Under the pieces are notes generated by a model. It made no database searches, was not told the origin of the DNA, and worked only from the letters and a program-made list of their open reading frames with translations. From Marchantia polymorpha subsp. ruderalis (Eukaryota > Streptophyta > Marchantiopsida > Marchantiales > Marchantiaceae), in NCBI GenBank assembly GCA_037833965.1, contig AP031351.1, positions 25,866,501 to 25,930,500 on the forward strand: a stretch of 64,000 nt of DNA, in the 5' to 3' direction. The position numbers and the translations under genes are program-made. Numbering within the stretch: position 1 is the stretch's first letter; each line of letters starts with the position of its first letter. Below are positions 21,949-52,169 of this stretch, piece by piece.

Positions 21949-22257
21949 TTATTTTTTATTATAATGTTTTTCCATTTGTCATCTAATAAATTAATATAAT
22001 ATTTTTTTCAACAAATTGAAAAATATTTTTCTTTGTTTATGTAATTATTTTGTTGAAATGATATATCAAACTAAGAATGATGATTGATACTCTCACCAGA
22101 ATCACAATTTTTCATTCACTTTTTGTTTTAAAATTGAACTTGCAATATAAACATAAAAATTTTAATGGATAAGAAAAATTTCTTTTATAAAAGTAATGAT
22201 TTGACTAAACGTTAAGTACAAATCATGTTTTTGTGAGAATTTGAGTTATTTACTTGA

Positions 22258-22322
22258 TGGTACCATATCAGAACGTAAATTGCTTGATGGGATACATCAA
22301 GTTTTGTTTTATCCATTAGAAT
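22258..22322 (+). repeat. Dispersed boundary motif, copy 1
   Basis: AACGTAAATTGCTTGATGGG, then ATACATCAAGTTTTGTTTTA and TCC. The core CTTGATG-GGATA-CATCAAG is itself a small palindrome. Related copies lie at 34,539-34,581 (inverted), 48,127-48,168 (same strand) and 48,767-48,810 (inverted). This copy sits at the edge of the A+T-rich DNA left of the gypsy insertion. Confidence 0.75.
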
Positions 22323-22490
22323 TTCACTAACGAGTACACGTCACACCTGTTCTAGCATGAACAGACGGACGGTGTAGTGACTCTGTCACGAGAGTCAAGC
22401 GTCGAAGTAGGGAGGAGGAAATGTTGAGCGTGGCATGACTTGCAATTGATCTGTATTGTTACTATGGCTACCGCACATGGTCTACGGTAC

Positions 22491-22494
22491 ACCG
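22491..22494. repeat. Putative 4-bp target-site duplication (left)
   Basis: ACCG directly precedes the first element base (TGTCATG at 22,495) and recurs directly after the last element base (GACA ending at 33,924). Four bases can match by chance, but they sit exactly at TG...CA borders. Confidence 0.6.
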
Positions 22495-22788
22495 TGTCAT
22501 GTAGTTACGAGTCGGCTCACGAAAGTTTACACACTTACTATATTTAGCCGTGAAGTTAGGGTTCGGGTCTCGAGGGGTATACAGTCGGGGACGGCTCGAA
22601 GAACGTTAGTTCTGCGAGTTGAGCCTGGAAGCGTTGGGAGCGTAGAGTGACTTTCCCCTTTGCGTCGACCTGGATTCTCCGAGTGTGGAGTGGGTTGGGC
22701 TTGACTCATGTTTGTGACGGTGACGGTTTGTTGCCAGTAGGGTAATTGACCGACGGGAATTCCAGTGGGGAATCTCCCGTTTATTTCA
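22495..22788 (+). repeat. 5' LTR of the gypsy element (block B only, 294 bp)
   Basis: It begins TGTCATGTAG and ends CCCGTTTATTTCA. It matches 33,513-33,806 at 291 of 294 positions. Differences include the TATA box (TATACA here, TATAAA in the other copy) and the primer-complementary segment (AGTTCTGCGAG here, AGTTCTTCGAG there). The 116-bp block A that precedes B in the 3' LTR is absent upstream of this copy. Confidence 0.92.
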
Positions 22789-22799
22789 CTCGAAGAACT
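22789..22799 (+). other. Putative self-primer binding site
   Basis: CTCGAAGAACT follows directly after the LTR end TTTCA. It is the exact reverse complement of AGTTCTTCGAG at 33,626-33,636 in the LTR, whose first base lies 30 nt after the first T of TATAAA, where transcription is expected to start. No tRNA-type PBS starting TGG is present here. This is the Tf1-type arrangement, in which the first 11 nt of the RNA prime reverse transcription. Confidence 0.7.
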
Positions 22800-25700
22800 C
22801 GTTTTTGTGGCATTGTGCGATCGATGTCATAATTTCAGGTTTCGGTTCTTGTTGTGCGTTTTCTCCCTGTCCTTTGCGGTTGGGTTGATCCTTACACTCT
22901 AGAATTGATTCGCGTTCATTTTCAAATCCATCAGCGTGTTTGATTGGATTTTCGTTTGGATACATCCCCTTTGATCTGCGTCCATCGAGCTCGTTTTTAG
23001 CAGGCAAGGCAGAGCGACGGATTGTGTCACAAGTAGTGTTGCTTCGGAGCTCCATCCTGTGGTGGCGCAATGGGCCGTGGTTCGTTGAACACGTTGCTGG
23101 TGTTACTGCTTGGAATTGTGCAGGATCACAGGACTTGAAACTGTAAAAGAAGGCTAGTACAGTGAGTCAATATCTATTTTCGCTGGAATCAGGAAGGACA
23201 GATTTTGAAAGCAAATGAAAGTGACTCAGTGAAAGTCGAATTTGGAGGGGACTGAAAATCATCAAATTTCAGGTGCACAAGGAAGTATCGATCTAAGCTT
23301 TATGTGAAGAAGCACACGCTTGCACGCCTTCGTACAGGTTGGCCTGCCAATCCCCATCCTTGTCCATTCTTTTGACCTGTTAGATCCTGGGTGATGGGGA
23401 GCGCTGGTGTTATCGTTCGAAATTCTCACGAGTAAGTTAGCATCTTGAACAAGCTCGCGGAAGAAAGGAAGGAAGAACTTGCGGATTCAATCGGATTCAG
23501 GAAATTGGGCTCGAATGTGGGGAGTTGCTGTGCTGCACGTGTGAGAAAATGGCTGGAATTCGCATGTAGCTACCAGGCCCTCACTTCTCGCCAGAAATGT
23601 GTTATCTGCGAACAGCTGCACTCCGTGCTCCGTAAGGTAGAACAGGTCTTAAGCATTCAGACCTGAGCAATTTTCCTCTCGAGCCCGGAAGCAAAATGAT
23701 ACAGTGGTAATGAGAATTCTTTTAGGATGGATTACATGCGTACTTTAAAAATACTACGGGTAAGTCCGGTGCTTGTGTGGGGACAGTAGTGGCAGATTTG
23801 CACATGATCTCTAAGGGACAGAGGATTTGTTTTTCCCTTCTGAGAACGATATATTCGGATATTTAAATTGAGTTGAAGAACTTGCTCCAAGGGCCAACAG
23901 TGGACCAGTGTGACGCTGAAAATCTAGGTGAATGAGCCGATGGCTAAATCCGTATGTTTCTAGTGCTTATTCTCAGAGGCTAACAGCAAGATGTATTTCT
24001 GAACCTGCTGGCAAAGTAGAGCACCTCAAGACCTTTGGATTGCAAAGCTACGAACATTCTTCAAGTTTTCACCTTTCACCAGTGACAGTAATGTCAGCTC
24101 ATTCCTCTCCTCTGACGTTGTCTGATTCTTCCGCTGGAGGTTCGGAAAAGTAAATCCTCCTCCATTTCCAGCTATCTGAGTAAGGAATGAGCGTCTAGCT
24201 TATGTAAGGCAGACATTGGGGTTTTGCTGGAAACCAGTTCTGGATGGGAAGTGAAGATAGGAAGAGAGATTGAACAACTGCTGGTGGTTTGTTGAGTGTC
24301 AGCGACTGAATAGAGAAGACTATCTTTTGATAGTGTTATGAAGGTTGGCAACTAGAAGGCATTTAGAGCAAAGCTTTCGTCGTGGGGCAAGGTGATCAAG
24401 GTTCTACAAACCTTACGAAGCTGTACAGTGCACATCATTGACCAGGATCTACGTATTATCCCAAAAACAGATTGAAGGTTCTACTGTTGGAAATGTGCTA
24501 ATGCATTACACGTACTTTCAGGGTGTATCTGCAAGCCATGACAGATGGCAAATAGGTCTTAGGACCTAGGATCATAATTCTTTACAGTTGGAAATTGTGT
24601 ACCTGTGTGGATCTCGTATTTCCAGCCATCATCCCTGTACAAGTGGTCTTCGCAGTTTCAGTGATGGTGGGTTAAAGTCAACTCTGCATTTAACCTTTAA
24701 CAGCAGTTCTTTGGAGTTGGAGGGTTGACTCGGATTGCTTTTCAGGTTTCTCATTGAGGAGATAGCATGGTGGGGGTAGCTAGGCTTACCTCATCAGCGA
24801 ACAATTATAGGTTGCCAGGACTTAACATGGCAAGGTGATTCGCTGTATGCTACTAAATCAGAAGGAGTGTCTTGAATATCTATTGAAAGGCTTTTAGTTT
24901 CTAAGTACCTTTGAGATAGAATTCAAAACTAGAGGGTAGGTCTGCTGTTTTTCACAGGATTTCTACTTATGAGTGTTCATATTCAATGAATATGAATATT
25001 AGAGCCTTTGGATCTACCATATATTTATGGTAAATCGTAAATATTTTCAGTGATTCAGTTTACAGAAAAATTACTTCACTAGACTAGTTACTTGGGTTAG
25101 AGAATCCTACCATAAGTAAATTACTGTGAGTTCAGGTGTTACTGCAGTTACCAAGAGTAGTATTCTTAAGCGAAAACATCTTTCCTTGGTGGATGTTCAG
25201 TCAGATGTGAAAAAAAAAAAAAGAGAGAGAGAGAAAAAAATAATAATTATAAAAATATCCTGAAAAGATTGAAAATTTGCACTCAATCTTACCTATATGA
25301 GTTTTTCGGTTGTGAAGACATGTACTTCTATAGTTCTTAGTGTATATGTTTGTTGAGCTAGTGGAAGTATATGTTTTAGCTGTATCTCTTTTCTTATGTT
25401 GAACGATTAGAGTAAGTAACAGTTTTAGATTCCTTGCCCTAGTGGAAGGGGAGGTGTGATTTGCTGTTAAGACAGCTTGGTGGAGATATCTTCTGTTCGA
25501 TGAAGGAGATAGCGTTGGGGACGTGAAAGAAGCAGACACGGAGCATGACGAGTGGATGAACTTCTGCGCTAAATGGGCACTTGCAGACGGAAGATGGTAG
25601 GGGGCGATGGAGATCGAATCGGGATCGCGAAGCGATGCGATGTCTCGTGTGTGTTGTCTTGTTTTGTGCTGTGTTTCCTTTAGACTGGAGAGTCGTTGCT

Positions 25701-26018
25701 AGCTGGTTGCTTGTGTTTGGGTCCTCTCCAGTCTTGCTTCCTGGTGCGCGCCCGTGTAGGGATGACGCTGATTTCCGGAGTAGTTTTACTCCTGTGTGCT
25801 GGCGATAGGGGGCTGGACTTGATCACCGGCCGGTCTATCTATGTTTCTCTCACGGTGAGACTGGAGTGATGACCAGTAGACCGTGAGAGTCTTCTTGTTG
25901 TGATGACAGGTTAGGTTGCTCATACACCTTAGCTAGTAGGGCTAGAGTAGCTCCGTGCAGCACAGCATCAGAGGCAAATTGGGTTATTGGGTGGAGATCT
26001 GGCAGTGGTGCCAGTTGA
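22800..26018 (+). other. Long non-coding leader of the gypsy element
   Basis: Between primer site and Gag frame lie 3.2 kb without a recognisable protein. Only short unrelated open frames occur on either strand. A poly-A/GA stretch lies at about 25,210-25,245. The leader is long for a gypsy element and may hold packaging or regulatory RNA, introns, or captured sequence. Confidence 0.6.
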
Positions 26019-29000
26019 GGTCTCGCCATCACGGAGCAGTCTAGTGGTCCTGTTGAGGACCGCGGGGGATTTACGCGAAGTGGATTGAGGTATCAGCTAC
26101 CTTCACCTATTTCGCCAGTTGTTGCGGAGCAGGACCAGAGTGTTGCAGACACAGAGTCTTTGGTGGTGATATCGTCTAGTGTTCCAACCCCATTGATTTG
26201 GGACATGGACGGCATGTACGGGGCCGCGAAGGGCCCTCGACGTTACTCTGGTGCATTGGGCACCATCGAGCTTGATGATTTTATTCAGGAGTTCGACACG
26301 TGGTGTGATATGTAGTTTCTGCGTAACCCCACGTTGTTTACACCCTTCTTTGCATGGAAGGGGTTATTCCAGCATTTGGAGGGGCCTCCCATGGACGATT
26401 ATCATGAGTTTGGGAGAGAGTATGCTGCAGAGATTGATGCATGGAGACGGCATTGGTCTCCGAACTACTCATATATTACCCAGGGTGGTGTGGGTACCAG
26501 TGGAGGTGCGAGTATCGGCATCAGTGGAGGTGCGAGTAGTAGCATCAGCGAGGGTACCAGTGGAGCAGTTGGCGCAACTGGTACTAGTACCAGCAGCGGT
26601 ACTGTTAGCATTGCCGGTGGCAGCACGAGGGGAGATGCTAGTGTCGTACCTTCGTTTAGCCCCATTCCTGAGTTCTTCAAGAGATTGAGGAAGAATTATC
26701 AAGGGGTGAAAACGGAGAAGTTGAGGAGCCTCCAGGAGTTTGAGCGGAAGACTGGCGAGAGTCTTCGTGAGGCATACACTCGTATGCGACGGCTCATCTC
26801 AGTTACTCACGGTGTGACTGAGGCACAGGCTGTCCAGTACTGGTATCGGATCCTGGACAGAGAGTTGCGGAGAAGAGTGCGTGATGCTACTCTCATGAGC
26901 GACTCATCACCCACATTAGCCCATGTGTTTGCTCTTTCTGAGAAGATTGAGCTTAACATGGTGGAGGAGAGGGTGGTGACGTCTACATTTGCGAGGGACA
27001 CGACCACTACTTCGCGTGTCCCACATAGCCCAGCACAGTCTCGCCCCATAAGTGGGAGTCGCGGAGGTCATACACGACATCCTTCAGGTCACAGAGAGCC
27101 TAGTGCGCGGCCACCACTGCCTTCATTTTCGGGTCAGCCACAGGAACCGTCATGTTGGACATGCGGAGGTAGCCATATGAGGAAGGATTGTCCCCAGGAG
27201 CGGGAGGGACAAACTCCACAGGCTAGGCCACAGCCGGCACAGGTGACCTGTGATCATTATCATCGACCGGGTCACCCTCGAGAGCGTTGCTTTGACCTTC
27301 ATCCTGAGTTGAGATCTGGAGGTAGAGGTCGTGGAGGTGATGCTCCGCGAGGCCGAGGTGGTCGAGGTGGTCGAGGTGGCAGAGGTGGTAGAGGTACCGG
27401 GGCCATTGAGCGTACCGCAGCGAGTGCTACTTCTGCCACAGAGAGCGCTATGGCTGCTCGGATTGAGCAGTTGGAGCAGAGGCTTGCTGCTATGGCCGAT
27501 CTGGGGGCGAGCACTTCCACATCTTACGAGGGAGAGGATTTCTCCTATTTGGCCAGTGCAGCACAGGTTGAGGCATCAGTTGCAGTGACCAGAGGTGGTG
27601 CTTGCACTTCAGAGCCACGTGGTGCGACTGTGGAGTTGGACCCTCAGAGGGGTGAGGGTGGACGTCAGTCTAGACTTCCCCAGTCCTTTTTGTTGTCAGA
27701 GGTGGGTAGCAGTTCATCTATGAGACCTGCACCGCCTACTGACACTAGAGTGAGAACTGAGGTTCTTACATCATCTGTTGTGGGCGCAGACGTGCCATCT
27801 AGTGCAGTGATGCGGATGGCCACTTCAGTCTTGCGATCTCCATTGTTCTCAACCACGGAGTTGATAGACTCTGGTATTGATTTGGCTCGAGTATTTCGGG
27901 TAGCAGCCACGTCGTGTGAGCGTGGGAGAGTCGCTGCTACTAGTGCCGAGATAAGTGAGGATACAGTTGAGGACCCATCCTCAACGTCTACATTGTTCGA
28001 GGAGACGACTTGGCAGGCCGCAGCGGCGAGGATGGAGTCCTTACCAGCTCGCCCAGCCATTGATCGCGAGAGTATTGTCCCTGGTGTATGTATGGTGGAC
28101 AACCGAAGTGGTCTATTTCGGTTAGTGAGTTCTACTGGACAGGTGTATGTCCCAGCCAGAGTTTTGTTGGATTCTGGTGCACAGCCCTTGATGTTGGGCA
28201 AGGCTGCATGCATTAGTTTGGGCATTCGGAGGTCAGAGTTGGAACCTTGCCCATTCCAGATCCAGACATCCCTTGGTGGCGCCAGCAACAGGTCTTACTT
28301 TATGACCAGGGAGAGCATAGCGGTGCAGTTGAGGCATGATCACCCTCATGATAGCTCGCAGTTTGGAGTTCGTGCTGTGGTTACATCAGCAGAGTCATAT
28401 GATGTGCTTGTTGGTGGAGTGGTGTTATACCCGATGGGCTTTCGGATGGACTATTGGACGGAAACTGCCGCATATCGTCCTGGTTGGCAGTCCGGAGATG
28501 GACGTCTGAGCGAGCTGCCAGTGAGATTTATTTCTCGGGATCGACCTCTTGGATCTTCATCAGCGGTCTTGGCATCTGTTGCGGGTTTTAGCGGAGTGCT
28601 TACCTGGCCCGATGACTTGTTGGAGGGGAACATGTCTGCCGACGATACCTCACTCTACGAGGATGTGGAGGAGGTTGTGAGTTTCACAGCGGCGGTGACT
28701 TCACCCTTAGATGTTCCACTATGGAGTTCGTGTCAGGCACTACAGTTGGAGGCTGATAGGTTGGTGAGAACAGCTTGGAGTGAAGCCTCTTTACCAGTAG
28801 AGCCAGACATGGCTTCAGCTGATCGGCTCGTTAGTGGTTCTAGCGCATTGTCTCATTTGGTTACTACACCTATTGCATGGGAGTATTCCTCAGAGGGCGT
28901 TTGTTTGCTGGATCTTTTTGGTGGGATCAGCACCGGTTTGGCTGCGGTGTTGCAGTCAGGTATTCCCGTACGAAGATACTTGTATGTGGAGAAGGACGAG

Positions 29001-29882
29001 ACTGCACGTCGAGTCTCTTCACGACATGTTGCACAGTTGATGCGGCGTTTTCCTTCGTTGTTGCCGCGATCAGCTGTCCGAGGATTCCAGAAGGCGTTGC
29101 CTTCAGACATTTCGTTGCTGGGGGCGCCAGACCTTGACCGCGTTGGCCATATTGATATGGTGATTGCGGGCTGGCCATGTCAGGGACACACACGCGCTGG
29201 ACATGGGACAGGGTTGCATGATCCCAGATCTCGGATGTTTTGGGAGATGATGCGAGTGTTACGTCATCTCCAAGTGCAGCAGACACGTTCTCCAGCATAC
29301 ATTCTGGAGAACGTACCATTGTTGGGTGACACTCGGGCCCAGTTGATGGCGAGTGTCCATCAAGTCCGAGCATGGATTGGATCAGCAGTACTGTTGGATG
29401 CTGCGAGGGTTGGATCACGGGCGCATCGTGCACGTTTGTGGTGGACCAACCTTTTGCCACGTGAGATATTGCGTCATGCTTATGATTCGGTGAAGCGTGA
29501 TACTAAACTCACCGTTGACAGTATCTTGGATGTTTCCCGGCACTCTCAAGTAGTGAGAGTTGCTGACAGGTCACCTATGGCGTTGGTGAACCGCGTAGGT
29601 CAGCCTCGGATGGCTTTACCTACATTTGTCAGTTATCCGGCATCACACGCATATCGTGATGGAAGACCTGGACTACTATGAGACAGTACCCTACATCAGT
29701 TGGTGGAGCCCAACGCTGATGATAGAGAGCGTGCGATGGGGTTTCTTACTGGTGTGACCGCGGCTTCTTCAGTTTCAGAGGCGTCGCGTCGTCAGGTTTT
29801 GGGTCAGGCTATGGACCTGAACTGCTTGACGTGGATTGTGAGCTTGGGTTTGGCCGAGCAACGCGTTTGCGCGCAGATTTGA
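26019..29882 (+). CDS. Gag-protease-DNA methyltransferase polyprotein (broken by TAG 26,313 and TGA 29,679)
   Basis: One frame stays open for about 1,280 codons except for two stops. The order is: Gag capsid-like regions (IELDDFIQEFDTW; FFAWKGLFQHLEG; SLQEFERKTGESLREAYTRM), a Ser/Gly-rich spacer, a CCHC knuckle CWTCGGSHMRKDC and a second knuckle with Tyr replacing one Cys (CDHYHRPGHPRERC), an RGG box (about 27,310-27,405), a short coiled coil (RIEQLEQRLAAM), an aspartic protease with VLLDSGAQPLML (about 28,160-28,195), and a DNMT3/DRM-like methyltransferase (about 28,890-29,860). No clear ATG lies at the open start; an ATG at DMDGMYG is one candidate. The downstream pol frame is -1 relative to this one and overlaps it at 29,726-29,879, so -1 frameshifting is plausible, though I saw no textbook slippery heptamer. 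Confidence 0.9.
28888..29867 (+). other. C5-cytosine DNA methyltransferase domain inside the retrotransposon
   Basis: Motif I LLDLFGGISTGLAAV (AdoMet binding, from 28,906), YVEKDETA (motif II, from about 28,981), HIDMVIAGWPCQGHTRAGHG (motif IV with the catalytic Cys codon at 29,178-29,180), YILENVPLLG (motif VI, ENV at 29,307-29,315), GSRAHRARLWWTNL (motif VIII/IX, like HRARYFWGNL of DNMT3/DRM enzymes), and after the TGA at 29,679 ERAMGFLTG and QVLGQAMDLNCLTWIV (motif X). The order is canonical 1-to-10 as in DNMT3, not the permuted DRM order. All catalytic residues are present. The TGA would cut off motif X and probably inactivate this copy unless it is read through. Confidence 0.92.
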
Positions 29883-32800
29883 TGGTTGTAACACCACTTA
29901 TTAGCTCATTGCCTACCGGGACGGTAGTAGCAATGGCTGGGGGCGACAGGCGAGATATTCATTATCCTTGGAGTTTATGGGACGTGACGAAAGGACTTGC
30001 CAGAGTTGCAGCCCATGTAGTTGGAGAGGATTCTCACGTGGAGGTGGCTACGAAGGAGGGTATAGAGAACCCTTTTTTGCAGTGTGTAGCGTAGCAACCA
30101 TTGACAGTGTCGCCTCCCTCTAGCGTGCCTATGGAGGAGGAATGGGAGCCATTGATTGGTTCCCAGATCACAGGAGGAGAGAGGCGAAGATTGACACAAT
30201 TCCTACGAGACTATAGGAGTTGTTTTGCTTTCAGTATGAAGGAGTTGGGTGCGTTGATTGGACCCGGTATACGGATAGAATTGGCTAGTGATACGCCAAT
30301 CTTCCGTCGTCCTTATCGATACAGTGAGATGGAGAGAGATTTGATTCGGAGTAGGACGTTGGACCTACTTGAGGCTGGACTAGTGGAGTTATTGCACGGT
30401 GAGTATGCGTCAGCCACTGTCATGCCGGTGAAGAAGGATGTACATGGCAACTACACGGATATGCGCATGTGTGGAGACTACCGTCCTCTCAATCGGCAGA
30501 CGAAGTCCGATAAGTATGCCATGCCTACACCTTAGGAGATCTTCGATGTGGTGGGACATGCGAGGATTTTTAGTACTTTGGATCTTCGGGCAGGATACCA
30601 TCAATTGCCAATTCGGGAGGAGGACAAAACCAAGACAGCGTTTTGGGGCGTCAACTCCCACGGCAAGGATTGTTTGTATCAGTGGCGATTCTTACCCTTT
30701 GGGTTGAAGAATGCACCTGCCGAGTTTCAGAGGGTTATGGACAGAATCCTGGCGGGGCTGGATTTTGTCAGATGTTACATTGATGATATCTTGGTGTTTA
30801 GTGACACTGTGGAGCAACACCAGATACACTTGCAGATTGTGTTTGAGCGATTGAGGGCTCATGGTTTGAGGTTACATCCTGGGAAGTGTAAGTTCTTCCA
30901 GGAGAAGGTTGAGTACTTGGGTCATGTGATATACCCAGGTGGTTTAGGAGTTCAGCAAGCAAAGGTGGAGGCTATTGCACGCATCCCTCGTCCCACGGAT
31001 GTGAGTAGAGTTCGTGCATTTATGGGTTTAGCGAACTACTACCGGAGGTATGTGAAGGGGTTCAGTGCTATAGCCAAGCCTTTGAACCAGTTGCTGAAGT
31101 CAGATCAGGAGTGGCAATGGGGAGATGAGCAGGAGAGAGCTTTTGTTGAGCTCAAGGCCAGGTTGGTGGCCGCTCCCATCTTGAGGAGACCTATCAGAGG
31201 TCGTCCATACCAATTGCACACTGATTGGAGTATGTTGGGACTTGGAGCGGTGTTGACGCAGCGTGATGATGAGGGCAAGGAGTTTGTGGTTGCGTACGCT
31301 AGTCGTTCGAACAATGCAGCGGAGTCGCGGTATAGTTCGTACGAGGGAGAGTGCTTGGCAGCGGTGTGGGCTGTGGCGCACTTCAGGTGTTACTTGTTTG
31401 GTACGCAGTTCACCCTTGTTACTGATCATCAACCGCTCAAGTGGTTGATGGAGTCCGACAAGCTTACAGGGAAGCTTGCACGGTGGGCTCTCATCTTACA
31501 GAAGTACGACTTTCAGGTGGTGCATAGACCTGGAGTTGCGAACCTAGATGCTGATGGTTTGAGTCGAAACCCATGCACTAGCCAGGAGGATGACACTGGA
31601 GCTAGATGGCATGGTGAGGTTGACGAGGAGATGGTGCCTGGTTGGCATGCATCTGCCTTCATGTGTTGGTTACGTGGGAACTCCAGCAGAGAGGATCATC
31701 TGACATCTTACTCTAGTCAGAGAGTAGATGGTCGATCTCCAGATCCTGAGGTTGAGGATGGTGGTGTGGATCAGCGTGATGTACACGATGATGCATTGGT
31801 GTTGGAGTTCCTACGGACCAGCATGCTGCCAGGCACAGTGGGTGCCAAGGAGCGAGATCGTGTTCTCCAACGGGCCAAGAGGTACCGATTGGAGGGATCA
31901 CATGTTCTCCGAGTATGGGAGGACGGTAGGGTACGAGTAGTACCACATCCAGCCCAGAGAGCACGCATTGTGAGGCATGCTCATGAGGAGTTGGGACATT
32001 TTGGAGTGAAGCGTACATACAGCTTACTCCTTGGTCAGTATTGGTGGCGTGGTATGCATACTCAGGTACAGCAGTTGGTATCACGTTGTTTGGTTTGTGA
32101 TCGAGTGAGGGCATCATTCAATGCCCCGACACCAGTGTTACATCCATTACCCATCATGGGGTTGGGTTACCGTTGGAGTTTGGACTTTGCTGGACCACTA
32201 CCTTTGACTGTACGACATCATCGGTATGTGTTGGTGATGGTGGAGCATTTCTCCAAGTGGATTGAGTTGGTGGCATTACCTGACAAGGCAAGTGAGGGAG
32301 TAGCGTATGCTTTTCTTGACAAAGTGCTTAGTCACTATGGTGCACCAGCTGAGGTGTTGACCGATCAGGGAACGGAGTTTCAGGGTGAGTTTCAGGTCTT
32401 GTGCGACAAGGCACTGATTGATCATCGGACCACGTCGCGAGATCATCCAGAGGCGGATGGTTTAGCTGAACGTGTTGTACAGACGGTGAAGAGGGCGTTG
32501 CGGAAGTATGGCCTGCAGAAAGGTCATCTTGGGGACTGGGATATCCAGTTACCGTGGTTGGCCATGGGATATCGGTTCAGTCGGCAGGCATCCTTAGCTT
32601 CCTTCTCACCATATTTTCTATTGTACGGCCGAGATCCAGACTTGCCAACATCGATTCGTCGTGAGTCTAGCGAGGTGGTGAACCTTGATGACCCGAATAT
32701 GTGGGTGAGAGTATGTTCTCAACGTGCAGAGCTCTTTCGAAGAGTTATGCTTGCAGCGTTTGAGAATCTTGCGATTGCTCAACATAGAGATACGTTGCGG

Positions 32801-33223
32801 TATGCAACCATTCGGGGAGGAGGTTATCGACCATCAATTCGTAGATTCCATGTGGGAGACTACGTCTATCTACAGCAGACTGCACTGACGACATTGGATG
32901 TGACGGCGGGACGCACCATCTTGCGGGTGCGGGAGGTGTTACCTTCTGGAGTTCTCCTGTTGGAGGGTCGTGACGGCGTTGTTTGGAAGGATCATGTGCG
33001 CAATTGTGCGCCATGCCACCTTCCAAACGTAGATGGCACTATGGACCCAAGCTTAGCGATAGTACGTGCTAGCTTGAGGTGCATGCTGTGTGGGTCGGCT
33101 GGTCAGGCGGCCCGTATGTTGGTGTGTGATAGGTGCTCTAGGGGATGGCACATGTCGTGCCTAACTCCGCCTATCGATGTTATTCCGGCTGGACGATGGG
33201 TTTGTCCTCGATGTACTTCATAG
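29726..33223 (+). CDS. gypsy Pol polyprotein: RT-RNase H-integrase-PHD finger (stops at 30,092 and 30,533)
   Basis: The frame opens at 29,726 and ends at 33,223, interrupted by TAG at 30,092-30,094 and 30,533-30,535. RT shows DMRMCGDYRPLNRQT, TLDLRAGYHQLPI, FLPFGLKNAPAEFQR and CYIDDILVFSD (catalytic YIDD at 30,776-30,787). RNase H follows (HTDWSMLGLGAVL, SSYEGECLAAVWA, LVTDHQPLKWL). Integrase has the HHCC zinc region (HAHEELGHFGVKRT ... CLVCDR) and a DDE core (SLDFAG, LTDQGTEF, EADGLAERVVQ). After the core comes an SH3-like FHVGDYVYLQQ region, then a PHD finger instead of the chromodomain seen in many plant gypsy elements. From 30,548 onwards 891 codons are uninterrupted. Confidence 0.93.
33073..33223 (+). 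other. PHD finger at the C-terminus of the integrase
   Basis: CMLC, then LVCDRCSRGWHMSCLTPP, then GRWVCPRC give the complete C4-H-C3 zinc ligand set with the Trp before the last Cys pair, as in canonical PHD fingers. These modules read histone H3 tails (methylated or unmodified Lys4). It is the last domain before the stop. Targeting of integration to a chromatin state is an inference from its position. Confidence 0.9.
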
Positions 33224-33380
33224 GGGTAGATGACTTGATCTTCACATGTTATGAATTGCAGATAGGCGACTAACGATGGGGCGACATAGCACCCGGCCTA
33301 CTGGTTCGCGCACCCACGAAGGTGTATAGCATGTAGTTGTAGATGGGGCTACTTGGGAGTCAGAGGGACCTGACCACCAG

Positions 33381-33393
33381 CTAGGGGGGCGAG
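33381..33393 (+). other. Polypurine tract
   Basis: CTAGGGGGGCGAG lies directly before block A (TGTGACATTTG at 33,395). It is the expected plus-strand primer position and supports A-B as the functional LTR. Confidence 0.65.
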
Positions 33394-33394
33394 T

Positions 33395-33806
33395 TGTGAC
33401 ATTTGAGTGTGTACTCTCTCGCGCTTTATATGTGTGTATGTGTGTGCGTATGTGTATGTGAGTAGCATGTCAGCGATGTAGAGTGTATGGCGATATGTAT
33501 TCGCACGACAGCTGTCATGTAGTTACGAGTCGGCTCACGAAAGTTTACACACTTACTATATTTAGCCGTGAAGTTAGGGTTCGGGTCTCGAGGGGTATAA
33601 AGTCGGGGACGGCTCGAAGAACGTTAGTTCTTCGAGTTGAGCCTGGAAGCGTTGGGAGCGTAGAGTGACTTTCCCCTTTGCGTCGACCTGGATTCTCTGA
33701 GTGTGGAGTGGGTTGGGCTTGACTCATGTTTGTGACGGTGACGGTTTGTTGCCAGTAGGGTAATTGACCGACGGGAATTCCAGTGGGGAATCTCCCGTTT
33801 ATTTCA
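33395..33806 (+). repeat. 3' LTR of the gypsy element (blocks A+B, 412 bp)
   Basis: TGTGACATTTG ... GACA (block A, 33,395-33,510), GC, then TGTCATG ... TTTCA (block B, 33,513-33,806). Block B contains TATAAA (33,596-33,601) and AGTTCTTCGAG (33,626-33,636). The latter forms a 10-bp hairpin with CTCGAAGAAC at 33,613-33,622. A GT-rich microsatellite lies in block A. Confidence 0.85.
33596..33601 (+). promoter_or_regulatory. LTR TATA box
   Basis: TATAAA in a GC-rich context. Thirty nt downstream starts the 11-nt segment complementary to the primer site. In the 5' LTR the same position reads TATACA (22,578-22,583), a change that may weaken the promoter driving this copy. Confidence 0.65.
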
Positions 33807-33808
33807 GT

Positions 33809-33924
33809 TGTGACATTTGAGTGTGTACTCTCTCGCGCCTTATATGTGTGTATGTGTGTGCGTATGTGTATGTGAGTAGCATGTCAGCGATGTAGAGTGT
33901 ATGGCGATATGTATTCGCACGACA
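33809..33924 (+). repeat. Extra partial LTR (block A') downstream of the 3' LTR
   Basis: Copy of block A (33,395-33,510), TGTGACATTTG to GCACGACA, with one visible substitution (CGCGCC for CGCGCT). It is joined to the end of block B through the dinucleotide GT, as in an LTR-LTR junction. It is followed at once by ACCG, the putative target duplication. Confidence 0.9.
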
Positions 33925-33928
33925 ACCG

Positions 33929-34620
33929 TCCTCATTTGACTTATCGAATCCAGTTTGCCACCAAGTCCCGTAGAGCTCCGTCGGAGCAAGGCGGGCAAGC
34001 AAGCGAGCAAGCAAAGAAGGAAGTAGATGGAGGAAAGTTGGAAGAGGAGCGATTGATTTACTTATTGATTGATTGTTTGATCGATCGATCGTTTGACACA
34101 CTGACTAGCTCACTGTCGGATTGATTGACGAAGTAAATTTGCAAGGCTCACGCAAGCAGGGCTTTCATTTCGGAGACTTAGAGTAGGAAGGAAGTACCTG
34201 CGTAGTACGTCCTACGACATTGTGATCGGAAGGTGGAAGAATTTTGGATGTGGGTGATCATATTTGTCTTGATACTCTCTCCGCGCGGTGAAGAATCTAA
34301 TCAACGAAATTATCCATTCGATGGATGGAACATGATGGCTTCCACTAGCGCTGCCCCTTCCGGTTTTTTAGTAGCAGGTCAAGCAGTTCGCTGGTTCGTT
34401 CATATGAGGAGAGATTTTGTTTGCGAGGATGATATTTCTTGAATTCTAGAGGTCGAGACTGACTTTTTTGCAAGGAGTATCTTGTACAAGAACACGTATT
34501 AGAACTCACCGATGGTGTGCCATCGGTGGGATCCCAACGGATAAAACAAAACTTGATAGGTACCATCAAGCAGTTTACGTTCACCTGGGGTCCCATATAG
34601 TAAATTCATATGATGTTACA
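33929..34620. other. Right flank of the gypsy insertion; no gene recognised
   Basis: A GC-richer stretch with CAAG-type, ATTG-type and ATCG-type simple repeats (about 33,990-34,095), then a perfect hairpin CACCGATGG-TGTG-CCATCGGTG at 34,507-34,528 and the inverted boundary motif at 34,539-34,581. A small open frame at 34,233-34,442 has no recognised features. Confidence 0.5.
34539..34581 (-). repeat. Dispersed boundary motif, copy 2 (inverted)
   Basis: On the minus strand it reads AACGTAAACTGCTTGATGG, TACCTATCAAGTTTTGTTTT and ATCC, closely matching copy 1. It marks the start of the A+T-rich island to its right. Confidence 0.75.
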
Positions 34621-37140: not shown

Positions 37141-38808
37141 GAAAAGGTGGTTAAGGCCTTAATAGTTTCCTCACTTAAATTAAGGACTTAACACAAAGAC
37201 CGTGAGCTCATCAATGTAAGACATACTCGCCGACGGAGAATGGCTGTCTTTCCAGAGTCGAGCCTCCATGGACGAACCCCATCGACGTTTTGGCCCAGAA
37301 GCTCCATTTTGCCGCTTCCGACTATAATCGAATTCTTCGGTTCTTTGCATCTCACTTCTTGCGGCTGGAACGTTACCCTCTTCTTCTTTGATGTCCACTT
37401 CTGTGCACCGTTCTATGACTTAGCAAATTTTTCGAGGATCTGCACTCAAGCTGATGTTATATACTTGAGACAAATCTGTCATCTGGAAGTGCCCACTAAT
37501 TTGATCATGTTTGGCGATTCTTGATATGGCTTCGGGGTTGAGTATGAACAAAATCTAGCGAAACGAGAATTGCCTTCGATGTCTCACGATATGATCTCTG
37601 TAATAGAATCTTTCATAAACGCAAATGAGGAGATCTTTCGAAGTTTGATCACGTCATCCACCGACTATTTACAACAAGAAACATCGCCAAATTCGTTCCT
37701 CGAGATGGTGAGGGAACCCAGTAATATAGAGAGAAGGATGGGAAGACCCACCCAATCAAGTCTTACAACAGGGTTGAAATCAAACAGGTGGTACGATTAG
37801 AAAAAAAGTCGGAGTCCCTAGACACAATGTGCTTATCTGCCTCGATATCTGAAGGCTTCTTTCCGGGGAAAAAAATGACGAAGCACCCTCCCCGAGCATG
37901 AGCATGAGGATCTATCGAGGTTCGAACTTGAACGAAGCTAAGAGGGTGGGTGGACCACACGTTAGCATGATGAACCTTTTGGTGGTGGTGCGCAAGAACT
38001 TTCGCCCTGGGAGCCACAGGAAGCTCAAGAACCTGCCAACTTGTCACAACGTGTTGTCCGGGGAGTGTAATAATCGCACGACTGTACGATGCAGTATAAA
38101 ATGTGGATGCCAAGTATGTTCCGAGCCACTTGTCTCTTTTGCGGCATGAAGAAGCAGAAGCAGGCCTGAAAAGCAAACGCAGGGCCGAGTTTCGTGAACT
38201 TTCGTCCGCAATTCGGTGCGCACGTGTATGCGAGTATGACGACGGTAAGGTCTGTGCAGCGGTCGGCCGATGACATCCCGGAGCCTTTGGAGCCGCCATC
38301 AAATCTTTTCATCATATTTGGAGGTTCGGTAGTAGGTATTGGTTATTTAAGGGCCAGAGCAGGGCACTTTGGAGGTGTCAGTCCCACATATGCAATGTGA
38401 CCAGCAGCGACTTGTGATTAGCGAGAGAAAATTTGCGAGCGTCGTCGTTCCGGACGGAGAGACGCCAGTTCGTGCCCTTTTTCTTGTTTACCTGGCGACG
38501 ATAGTGCTCGAGAGAGAAGGGCTTCCTCTGAGCTCGCGTGGGGAGAACGAATTGGACTCTGTTGTGCTGGGGCGGTGATTTCGGAGTGGGTGCCGGACGT
38601 TCACGGTGAAGAGATATCGGGGTTCTCGTTGCTGGATAGATTTGCGCACAATTGAGGAGCTTTTGCTGAGTTGAAAAATGTGGAAGCATCGAAGAGTGAT
38701 CGCTGGAGCGAAAGCATAGTGATGAGTTGTGGGAAGTGGAGTGATTTTGATTAGGGTTGAAGAGGGCAAGTGTGGGGGCTCGGGAACCCTAGTGGGCCTT
38801 TGGAAGGA
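37141..38808. other. Region upstream of the mitochondrial carrier; weak hypothetical ORFs only
   Basis: Base composition returns to gene-like values. Open frames exist on both strands (for example minus 37,180-37,398, plus 37,570-37,800 and minus 37,763-38,302) but none shows a family motif. The last ~400 bases, with GAG/GTG-rich composition, are probably the promoter and 5' UTR of the carrier gene. Confidence 0.4.
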
Positions 38809-41800
38809 ATGCAAACAGAAGCAGCAACATCAGGGGAAACCAGGATTCATGCGGAGGTTGGAGGATTGGTTGGGCAGAGAGTTGCGGCAACATTGGCATC
38901 CACCGTGGCGTCAGGAGAATCCTCGCGAGCTCCCGATGAAGGGGCAGTCGGAAGCAGCACTCCAACGATAGCTGAAGCCACAGCTTCTGCCCATCAGACC
39001 ATGCGCCAGACCCAGATAGGCACCGGGAGTCAGCTGTTAGCGGGGGGTGTCGCGGGCGCCGTCAGCAAAACTTGCACAGCCCCCCTAGCCCGTCTGACAA
39101 TCCTGTTTCAGGTATGGTTATCCATTTTGGATGTAATGTTACATCCGGTGTATGGGTGTGTGTGTGCCAGTCCGAACATTGTCCGTGTTCCTATCTCCAG
39201 AGCATCGCAACTGGGGTTCATCTGTTCCTTGTTTTCCTTCCTTGGACCGTATGTTTTTTTGTTCCTTCCCGCATTCGAATGTACACCTCTAGATGAGCTT
39301 CAGGTCCATCCATACTTCCGCGGTCAGATCTTCGCAACTTTTGATATTGGTCGTGCATATGCTAAGGGCTTGAAACTCAAGGTCAGGTCCGAGAAGGCTC
39401 GTGTTTCATACTGGCGTTATCATTTTTTGTCGAATAGGTTCTTTTGGACGTTGAAGTCTTTATAATGTTGTTTTGGCTTCGATTTCGCTTTCGTGTTCTG
39501 TAAGCTTACTGGGAGTTATGGACCCTATGTTTGATGGTTGCTCTGAACTTGTTTGATGGTTGGGATAAAGTAGATAAGGGTGGGAGGCATAACTGAAATA
39601 ACATAGTAACTTTTATGTACGTTGTTTGAATTCTCATAGAACGGGATGCTTTTTTTTCCAGTGTAAGCAATGACATTTTTTCGTCGCAGGTACAAGGCAT
39701 GAATGCGAATGGGGAAAAGTTAAGTCGTCCGCGGATTCTTAAAGAAGCTTCGAGGATAGTCCGCGAAGAAGGATTCAGAGCTTTTTGGAAAGGGAATGGA
39801 GTAACTATTGTTCATCGACTGCCATATTCATCTGTCAACTTTTTTGCGTATGAGAAATATAAGATGGTGAGTAAAGGTGGATTGGTAGACAATAATCATG
39901 AATTTCCCTTCTTATCGTCACGAGTTAGTTAAGCACGAGGGTCAGCTTCATTCTTTTCCCGTTTGTATATGTACTCGTTTTCAAGTTGCATACAGGAACA
40001 TGTTTCCAGTAGCAAAATTGTTATAAAGGGGTAAGTCAGGACTTCGACCAAAGTGTAATAACATTATAGAACTGATGCATTCTATGGTGTTAGAACTAAA
40101 TATGCCGGAGTTGTGTTTTAACGTTTGCACACGCTTTAGTTTAATCGCTTCGTATTTTTTACGCAGTCCATACTTTAGACCCTTACATGGTCATTCTCTC
40201 CTGGCGTGGTCAAGTTTCACGTACCTTGTAACCTTCTGTTTCCTCAGCCTCTTGTTTCCTTATTCATTAATGGCACTCTAGAACATTGTAGGGATTAAAA
40301 CCTCCCTGCATTCTGTATCGACCCGCTGGGTAAGGAGTATTAAAGACCTCCAGTACGAAACGGTCTCTGGCCGTGGCCACAACCTGCCCTAGTAGTTTGA
40401 TGGGTAGCAATTTATGGAAAAGAAATAGTGAAGTCAAGTACTTGTATCCTTATCCCTTACCCTTAGATTCAAGCTTACAGATCCCTTTCTGGATACCATC
40501 TTGGTGCCTGCTGTCACTTCTCTTCCCGTTCCACTGATTTTCATTCTGCATCTGGTCTTTCCCGGATTGTTATCTGCACGTGTTTCGCAATTTGTTCTCC
40601 TATACAAACATCGACATTCTATATTTCTTCAGACTACTTAAATTCAGCAGAAGACGATTTTTCTTCATGTTCCTAAACCATTGGCACCTCTTTAATTTTC
40701 TGTCATAGGCCCGCCGCTCGTAATGAGTTCTCGTATACGATCTTGCTACATATACATTCTCTCAAAGAAGAAATGCTCAAGATTCACTGCGTGCGTCATA
40801 CTCATTTCATTAACGGTGGGACCGAAAATAGCTTAGATGCTACGGATGAGAAAATGGTCACGTATGTTCAGTACCTAGTACTACTCTTTTGCTTGTAAGG
40901 CTTTAACTTCAGGAATTTGAGTATGTCTAAACAGATACGAACAGAAATAACAAGGCCGTGTAGGGCATGCTCCTGCTACCAAGGTGCCAGCCTTTGTAGC
41001 AGGAGCATATCTGCATCAATTCACATGAGAGGAGCGCTTGTCTTGGAGCTGCTTATTGAAGTAGGTCTGTTCAAAAATCTGAAGTCAATTGGATTTGCCA
41101 GCTGTCCACTAACCCTTAGCAGTGTGCTTTTACCCATTTCAGTACCTGAGAAGCATGCTTGGTATCGAAGGAAAACAAGAGAGCTTAGGAGTTGGTATGG
41201 GGACAAGGCTCGTAGCTGGCGGAGCAGCGGGTATAACTGCAGCATCTTTGACCTACCCCTTGGATCTAGTCCGAACGCGCTTGGCTGCTCAGGTAAGATG
41301 CATCCGCTGACCGAATGATCATTCTGCTATCAGTTTTTGTTATTTGTGCGTCGGGAGTAACGTGCGGGACTGCAGGAGGCTTTTATTTTTTGCTGCTAGA
41401 AACTTATGAATTTCACTGTAGTTGATTGTTTATGTAATTCTTAAGTCGTTGCTCCTCTTGATCTTTTCTTCCGTTCGTTTGTCAGTGTAGTCCCACCTGG
41501 GTGTTTGTTTTCACCTCGGGCCTCAAATCCTAGATCTCTTTACCAGGGATCCGTTTGTTGACAGACAAGAGTGTCTACTTTTAACATTAGTTGGCGGGTC
41601 TTGTACCTGTGAGCACGATCGAGCAGTGGTTGACCAGTTTGCAGTTAGTGTTACCTGTTCTCTATACTGCTGCCACCTGTAGCCTTTGCTTCTGGTGTAT
41701 CATAAAGTTAAAGATTAACCTCCAGCTAAAATTGATTGGGAAAGTGTATCTATCAATGAAGACGCTTACTTTCACGAAAAGTATGATTTTTTCTTTTTCT

Positions 41801-49934: not shown

Positions 49935-52169
<2,235 letters not shown>

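Follow-up and report, generated by a model that had tools for sequence, protein, structure and literature searches.

A Ty3/gypsy retrotransposon family of Marchantia polymorpha carrying a predicted DNMT3-type cytosine methyltransferase beside Gag and protease

A stretch of 64,000 nucleotides from the genome of Marchantia polymorpha subsp. ruderalis (contig AP031351.1; the whole stretch is hereafter called the window) contains a Ty3/gypsy retrotransposon in which a predicted DNMT3-type cytosine-5 DNA methyltransferase (DNMT) shares an open reading frame (ORF) with Gag and an aspartic protease (PR), upstream of the reverse transcriptase (RT). The enzyme is a maintained part of the family's structural polyprotein, and is probably packed at Gag level and methylates the element's cDNA. 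An initial annotation, made from the letters of the window alone, had proposed that a Ty3/gypsy element of a plant captured a DNMT of the de novo type, and Pfam matches to DNA_methylase, RT, RNase H and integrase bear this out. Why a transposon should carry an enzyme that hosts use for transposon silencing is a puzzle, for which the published cases found come from dinoflagellates and a charophyte alga. Marchantia polymorpha moves the question to a genetically tractable land plant for which the available text of two papers describes a methylome (PMC5784723) and a CG-methylation mutant (PMC8594673), and in whose genome many closely similar, near-intact copies aid the inquiry. The combination of an integrase with a split-repeat arrangement poses, in addition, a concrete puzzle of replication.

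The DNMT domain contains, in one frame, motifs I (DLFGGISTG, 28911-28937), IV (GWPCQG, 29169-29186), VI (ENVP, 29307-29318), VIII (HRARLWW, 29424-29444) and X (LGQAMDLN, 29799-29822). The canonical set that the initial annotation had placed in one frame with Gag and protease, upstream of RT, was thus located in full between 28911 and 29822. ORF 26334-29681 matches Pfam DNA_methylase with an E value of 1.1e-9, above the family cut-off; Gag and protease are recognized by motif, the Gag match of the window copy being sub-threshold in Pfam (17.7 bits against a cut-off of 24.1) and the protease having no Pfam match among the ORFs of that copy, where the DSG motif at 28164 was read in the translation. 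In an alignment of the window copy with 23 other copies (L009, L010 and L024 are not in it), all 24 rows share identical motifs I, IV, VI and VIII, and 22 share motif X, and because this identity holds across the aligned rows the motif finding is more than chance. A six-copy profile compared with solved structures finds DNMT3A best, followed by DNMT3C, DNMT3B, DNMT2, DRM and bacterial enzymes, with no DNMT1 or CMT chain among the matches up to E 10. That DNMT2, a tRNA methyltransferase, appears among the weaker matches (2.6e-5) would suit a domain that methylates RNA, or one that binds nucleic acid in the particle without catalysis, yet DNMT3A, 3B and 3C match better (best 5.6e-11) and the invariant motifs are what a catalyst would show, making such a role very unlikely.

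The order of the motifs is unpermuted, I-IV-VI-VIII-X, whereas both DRM genes recognized in the same genome (L065, L066) have a permuted order with VI-X before I-IV. Because of this difference the element enzyme is classed, by its predicted protein, as DNMT3-type, and a DRM-like enzyme is excluded; of the "DNMT3/DRM-like" label in the initial annotation, the first half agrees with DNMT3A as best solved relative and the second half falls. The element DNMT shares about 30% identity with the intron-bearing DNMT3 of the genome (L067, C6:12459200-12460000), 33% with human DNMT3A and 26-28% with the two DRMs; in motif VIII the element has AHRAR where L067 has CKRRR. At about 30% identity a recent capture of the genome's own DNMT3 is excluded, and the sequences point to an old or foreign capture. 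The only match to the DNMT in IMG/VR was a phage-type methyltransferase at 28%, and a search of genome_contigs gave no match.

The genome searched comprises 241,466,482 bases in nine contigs. With 145 matches scored out of 571 candidates, counts from the DNMT search are minima: at least 145 DNMT matches are distributed across all nine contigs, and for 26 of those scored a hand count gives an open frame of at least 1348 codons, with the match itself free of stops. The converse search from RT, in which 96 matches were scored of 3821 candidates and compared with the 145 DNMT rows and 32 further ones, placed a DNMT row upstream of 87 of the 96 (83 within 1.6 kb, four at 1.9-6.0 kb); the pairing script ignored strand, and one far match on the opposite strand was reassigned by eye to the unmatched. 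Hence other genomic copies do carry the DNMT between protease and RT, as the initial annotation had expected of a genuine domain. The nine RT matches left over are partial or broken copies with differing breakpoints. L072 has DNMT sequence, and L074, L078 and L080 retain part of it (L078 the last stretch only); L070 and L075 show a net loss of sequence somewhere between ORF1 and RT; the remaining three end at differing points, either past the DNMT or immediately ahead of RT. A DNMT-free sister lineage was sought and none was seen among the 96 scored matches, which are close RT copies; the search from RT fills with members of the family itself, and more distant RT relatives were not pursued further.

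Selection was measured between subfamily 1 (18 rows, including the window copy) and subfamily 2 (four copies), with L059 and L060 dropped. The dN/dS ratio is 0.118 for the DNMT, 0.058 for RT-RNase H, 0.095 for the integrase part and 0.078 for the tail containing the PHD finger, and the linkers give 0.211 before the DNMT and 0.685 after it; the value for the PR region (dS 1.5) was set aside because so little sequence underlies it. In the DNMT, 9 nonsynonymous and 33 synonymous changes are fixed, a ratio similar to that of RT (P 0.59) and integrase (P 1.0) and different from that of the flanking linkers (P 0.025; counts rounded). Singletons, which mostly represent decay after insertion, show weaker constraint (21 to 13; P 4e-4 in comparison with the fixed differences). 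Because the between-subfamily ratio is far below 1, the DNMT domain is maintained by purifying selection. The same values bear on a one-off read-in, an assembly artefact or a decaying passenger domain, for which the broken ORF1 and Pol of the window copy could speak; at least 145 matches on nine contigs, 26 ORF1 frames of intact length and ratios far below 1 rule these out and leave them negligible probability, so that the read-in weighed by the initial annotation is not supported. Trees of the DNMT and of RT-RNase H-integrase each split the two subfamilies with support of 1.0, which, together with the lack of a DNMT-free lineage among the 96 scored RT matches, speaks for co-inheritance of DNMT and RT; within subfamily 1, where support is often low, they disagree.

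In copies with ORFs of intact length the order Gag-PR-DNMT, UAG, then RT-RNase H-integrase-PHD runs in a single frame. ORF1, of 1348-1365 codons, ends UAG CAA CCA (CAA CAA in L062), and ORF2, of 1042-1045 codons, continues its frame; by hand count, nine of 20 fetched copies combine an ORF1 of 1351 codons or more with an ORF2 of 1042, and TAG CAA is present in all 24 aligned rows, in both subfamilies. UAG CAR YYA is the leaky context of tobamovirus type, and the UAG is predicted to be a read-through stop needed for Pol. Its position puts the DNMT on the Gag side. With a leaky UAG after the DNMT, most of the product would be Gag-PR-DNMT, and because the DNMT precedes this leaky-type stop we infer that the enzyme would be packed in particles at the level of Gag. 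The packed enzyme would methylate double-stranded cDNA before or at integration, and new copies would arrive already bearing CG, perhaps also non-CG, methylation, which could conceal the cDNA from foreign-DNA sensing or guide insertion into tolerated silent chromatin.

The PHD finger, its Cys/His pattern intact in 22 of 24 rows, lies at the C-terminus of Pol, the place of the chromodomain in chromoviruses, and Pfam gave no chromodomain match in the ORFs of the window copy and of L011. Reading and writing of chromatin at insertion sites might be shared between PHD and DNMT, the PHD selecting histone tails and the DNMT methylating the flanks after integration; both domains are maintained, and CHD4, PHF12, PHF21A and KDM5 are among the nearest solved PHD fingers, but the two lie in separate ORFs across the stop, and we regard this division of labor as distinctly unlikely.

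Any methylation of resident copies has to be viewed against the host's own enzymes. The host search scored 123 of 290 candidates and fetched four, giving an incomplete list that holds, besides the two DRMs and L067, a fragment of a second DNMT3 (L068, C2:6442000-6443200); no MET or CMT was recognized among these 123 of 290, though both are published for Marchantia polymorpha. The available text of the 2018 methylome paper lists five methyltransferases, namely MET, two CMT and two DRM, and no DNMT3 (PMC5784723). Unlike that list, the genome sequence shows at least one DNMT3. Among singletons in the element copies, 247 of 427 are C-to-T changes on either strand, at densities per site and copy of 0.0046 in CG, 0.0051 in CHG and 0.0028 in CHH. 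This footprint fits host methylation of resident copies, with coding constraint as a confounder. It would also suit repression of the many resident copies by the DNMT acting in trans; such a self-limiting brake would reduce harm to the host and so let the family persist. The footprint is densest at CG and CHG, and copy-number brakes made from Gag products are known in other elements. The position in the structural polyprotein does not require such a role, however, and the host's own DNMT3 and DRM genes could leave the same footprint, so that a brake is unlikely.

The repeats of the element are split. Their order in the window is A-coding-B-A-B, with A1 at the 5' end and B1, A2 and B2 after the coding part. 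Fifteen of the 20 fetched copies have B-A-B, including L011, whose B2 is shortened at its start, and A1 stands at the 5' end in all eight copies with both ends located. The termini are TGTC...GACA, and the 3' end of copies reads ...CGCACGACA. All eight copies with both ends located, out of 14 tried, are flanked by identical 4-bp duplications (ACCG in the window, then AAGA, AAAG, AGTG, GCTT, ACGT, GATG and AAAG); of the other six, one has an altered 3' end and five lack a 3' end at the predicted place. Of ten fetched five-prime pieces, three included the start of A1 and another two a part of A1. Repeat A by itself is excluded as a conventional long terminal repeat, since the duplications flank A1 and B2, not A2. 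In the window A1 and A2 differ at 3 of 294 sites and B1 and B2 at 1 of 119, together 4 of 413, which suggests a fairly young insertion. Two copies depart from the common form: L014 has an extra A-B unit at its 3' end (B-A-B-A-B), with the palindromic junction present twice, and L026 stops at B1 without A2 and B2, for which recombination between B repeats or a one-repeat product are suggested alternatives.

The B1/A2 junction, GACA-GC-TGTC, is a perfect 10-base palindrome that unites the two ends of the element with two extra bases, and it is present in 16 of 20 fetched copies. Because the purine tract precedes B1, not A2, ordinary reverse transcription would yield a B-A repeat at each end; the genomic form would then be that product rotated by one B, and may be read as the outcome of a cut at one junction of a circle-like intermediate with joined ends, the B/A palindrome representing the joined ends from which the integrase would make new ones. 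The integrase is of the rve DDE kind, and no tyrosine recombinase was matched in the two ORFs of L011. RT of an intact copy has Ty3 as its closest solved relative.

Reverse transcription would be self-primed, as in Tf1. Directly after A1 lies CTCGAAGAACT, and its exact reverse complement AGTTCTTCGAG lies at position 113-114 of repeat A, in the window A2 about 30 bases after TATAAAG. The self-primer is present in A2 of all 16 copies with the junction, and the leader match in the window and in five of five five-prime pieces holding the end of A1; the chance frequency of a random 11-mer in A2 is 7.5e-5. When the RNA is folded from the predicted start, one copy pairs the primer with its site at all 11 bases and another at 8 of 11 (z-scores -2.6 and -2.0). 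In the window A1, the TATA and primer stretches are both changed relative to A2. An 11-nt self-primer in a Tf1-type layout is therefore predicted, as is the RNA start itself.

Combining these features gives an element that may merge self-primed Ty3 reverse transcription with a DDE integrase whose substrate is a DIRS-like intermediate of joined ends, cut open at an internally carried palindrome, with the Gag-level DNMT methylating that DNA, perhaps as a mark of self or a licence for cutting and integration; this is a tentative suggestion, and its probability is low. We know of no such replication cycle in an integrase-bearing retrotransposon, and none was found in literature listings on split direct repeats combined with Gypsy. 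The replication anatomy may prove more novel than the DNMT mechanism.

Several points weigh against a packed, cDNA-methylating enzyme and the cycle drawn around it. The selection tests lack independence, because the copies are related by descent and were chosen via their DNMT. The AlphaFold model of the DNMT was unusable (pLDDT 29.7). The density of C-to-T singletons at CG and CHG exceeds that at CHH by a factor of 1.6-1.8, which is uninformative on the element's own enzyme. Read-through, self-priming and the circle step are predictions from sequence, and the joined-ends step does not account for the copies showing just one of two possible cuts. Finally, the DNMT of KnitGypsy-Dnmt3, an element of Klebsormidium nitens, was inactive in yeast, a result judged inconclusive by its authors in the available text (PMC5890265).

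The window copy itself is defective (Table 1). Stops at 26313 and 29679 interrupt its ORF1 frame, the latter inside the DNMT and ahead of motif X, Pol is in a different frame from ORF1 with an RT stop at 30533-30535, and the second CCHC-type knuckle (27249) has Tyr in place of one Cys. The leader between A1 and ORF1 (22789-26018) differs between copies (L013, L015, L019), with at least two sequence types left of 25602, and the spacing from DNMT to A1 is about 5.2-7.3 kb among copies. On both flanks of the element lies an imperfect inverted repeat (80 nt, 78%; 22248-22327 and 34526-34605), and the element is perhaps nested inside an older inverted-repeat element. Farther away, ORFs at 38770-39465 and 50727-51554 resemble, by eye, exons of a mitochondrial carrier and an alpha-amylase, respectively, and are likely host genes near the insertion.

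Table 1. Positions of element features in the window
Feature	Position	Strand	Remarks
Whole element	22495..33924	+	Ty3/gypsy type, Marchantia polymorpha; 4-bp target duplications on both sides
5' target-site duplication ACCG	22491..22494	+	same as 33925-33928
Repeat A1 (5' terminal repeat)	22495..22788	+	begins TGTC, finishes TTTCA
Predicted primer-binding site CTCGAAGAACT	22789..22799	+	reverse complement of AGTTCTTCGAG within repeat A
ORF1 Gag-PR-DNMT	26019..29681	+	broken in window copy by stops 26313, 29679
Gag CCHC-type zinc knuckles	27153..27275	+	motif in translation; second knuckle altered in window copy
Aspartic protease motif LLDSGAQ	28164..28184	+	motif in translation; no Pfam match
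Predicted DNMT3-type cytosine-5 DNA methyltransferase domain	28890..29867	+	internal TAG 29679-29681 in window copy
Conserved UAG between ORF1 and Pol	30092..30094	+	followed by CAA CCA in window; predicted read-through stop
Reverse transcriptase and RNase H	30557..31507	+	Pfam RVT_1, RT_RNaseH; stop 30533-30535 breaks RT frame upstream
Integrase: zinc-binding domain and rve DDE core	31949..32449	+	Pfam PF17921, PF00665
PHD finger, Pol C-terminus	33080..33214	+	Pfam PF00628, 42 bits
Purine-rich tract AGGGGGGCGAG, candidate polypurine tract	33383..33393	+	directly before B1
Repeat B1	33392..33510	+	boundaries +/-2 nt
Palindrome GACAGCTGTC at B1/A2 junction	33507..33516	+	element 3' end GACA + 2 nt + 5' end TGTC
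Repeat A2	33513..33806	+	contains TATAAAG (33596), self-primer AGTTCTTCGAG (33626-33636)
Repeat B2, element 3' end	33806..33924	+	terminates ...CACGACA
3' target-site duplication ACCG	33925..33928	+	same as 22491-22494

Among known systems, the genomic DNMT3 and DRM genes (L065-L068) belong to the same enzyme superfamily as the element DNMT, and retrotransposons with such enzymes have been described elsewhere. According to the available text of de Mendoza et al. 2018, KnitGypsy-Dnmt3 of Klebsormidium nitens has a Dnmt3 in the Pol ORF of an LTR Gypsy element, with Ka/Ks < 0.2 and DIRS-like repeats, and the DNMTs of SymbioDIRS methylate CG de novo in yeast; Marchantia and liverworts are not named in its main text (PMC5890265). 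A 2025 paper repeats, in its available text, that DNMT3 occurs in streptophyte and dinoflagellate retrotransposons (PMC12344493). No earlier land-plant element of this kind was recognized in the literature searched, supplements and most subscription papers lying outside the search.

Self-priming is predicted here as in the Tf1/Sushi group and the plant Tcn1 chromoviruses, the Tcn1 clade being the only one among plant chromoviruses for which it is reported in the available text of Neumann et al. 2019, whose main text does not contain the words methyltransferase and PHD (PMC6317226). Unlike chromoviruses, including Tcn1, the Marchantia element has no chromodomain that was found. With SymbioDIRS-Dnmt3 of Symbiodinium, as described in the available text, it shares A-coding-B-A-B repeats and a DNMT3 in the polyprotein (PMC5890265). 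Unlike SymbioDIRS, which by the same description belongs to the DIRS class and has a tyrosine recombinase, it has a Ty3 RT, a DDE integrase and target duplications.

The closest resemblance, drawn from published description and not from sequence, is with KnitGypsy-Dnmt3. In the available account both are Ty3/gypsy elements with the order RT-RNase H-integrase and an intronless DNMT3 in the polyprotein, in both the DNMT is under purifying selection (0.118 in Marchantia, Ka/Ks < 0.2 in Klebsormidium), and both have A-coding-B-A-B repeats arranged as in DIRS elements. They differ in host, Marchantia being a land plant and Klebsormidium an alga, and in the place of the enzyme, which in Marchantia lies in ORF1 with Gag and protease, before the UAG, and in KnitGypsy, as described, in the Pol ORF. 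For KnitGypsy the available text makes no mention of a PHD finger, of self-priming, which is predicted in Marchantia, of a palindromic junction or of 4-bp duplications (PMC5890265). Where the initial annotation had left a related or an independent capture open, the balance leans to a related one, as judged from that description, because KnitGypsy-Dnmt3 has the same superfamily, DNMT class and repeat arrangement. Thus, the Marchantia family shows the tested features of the KnitGypsy-Dnmt3 kind, with its DNMT in a different ORF.

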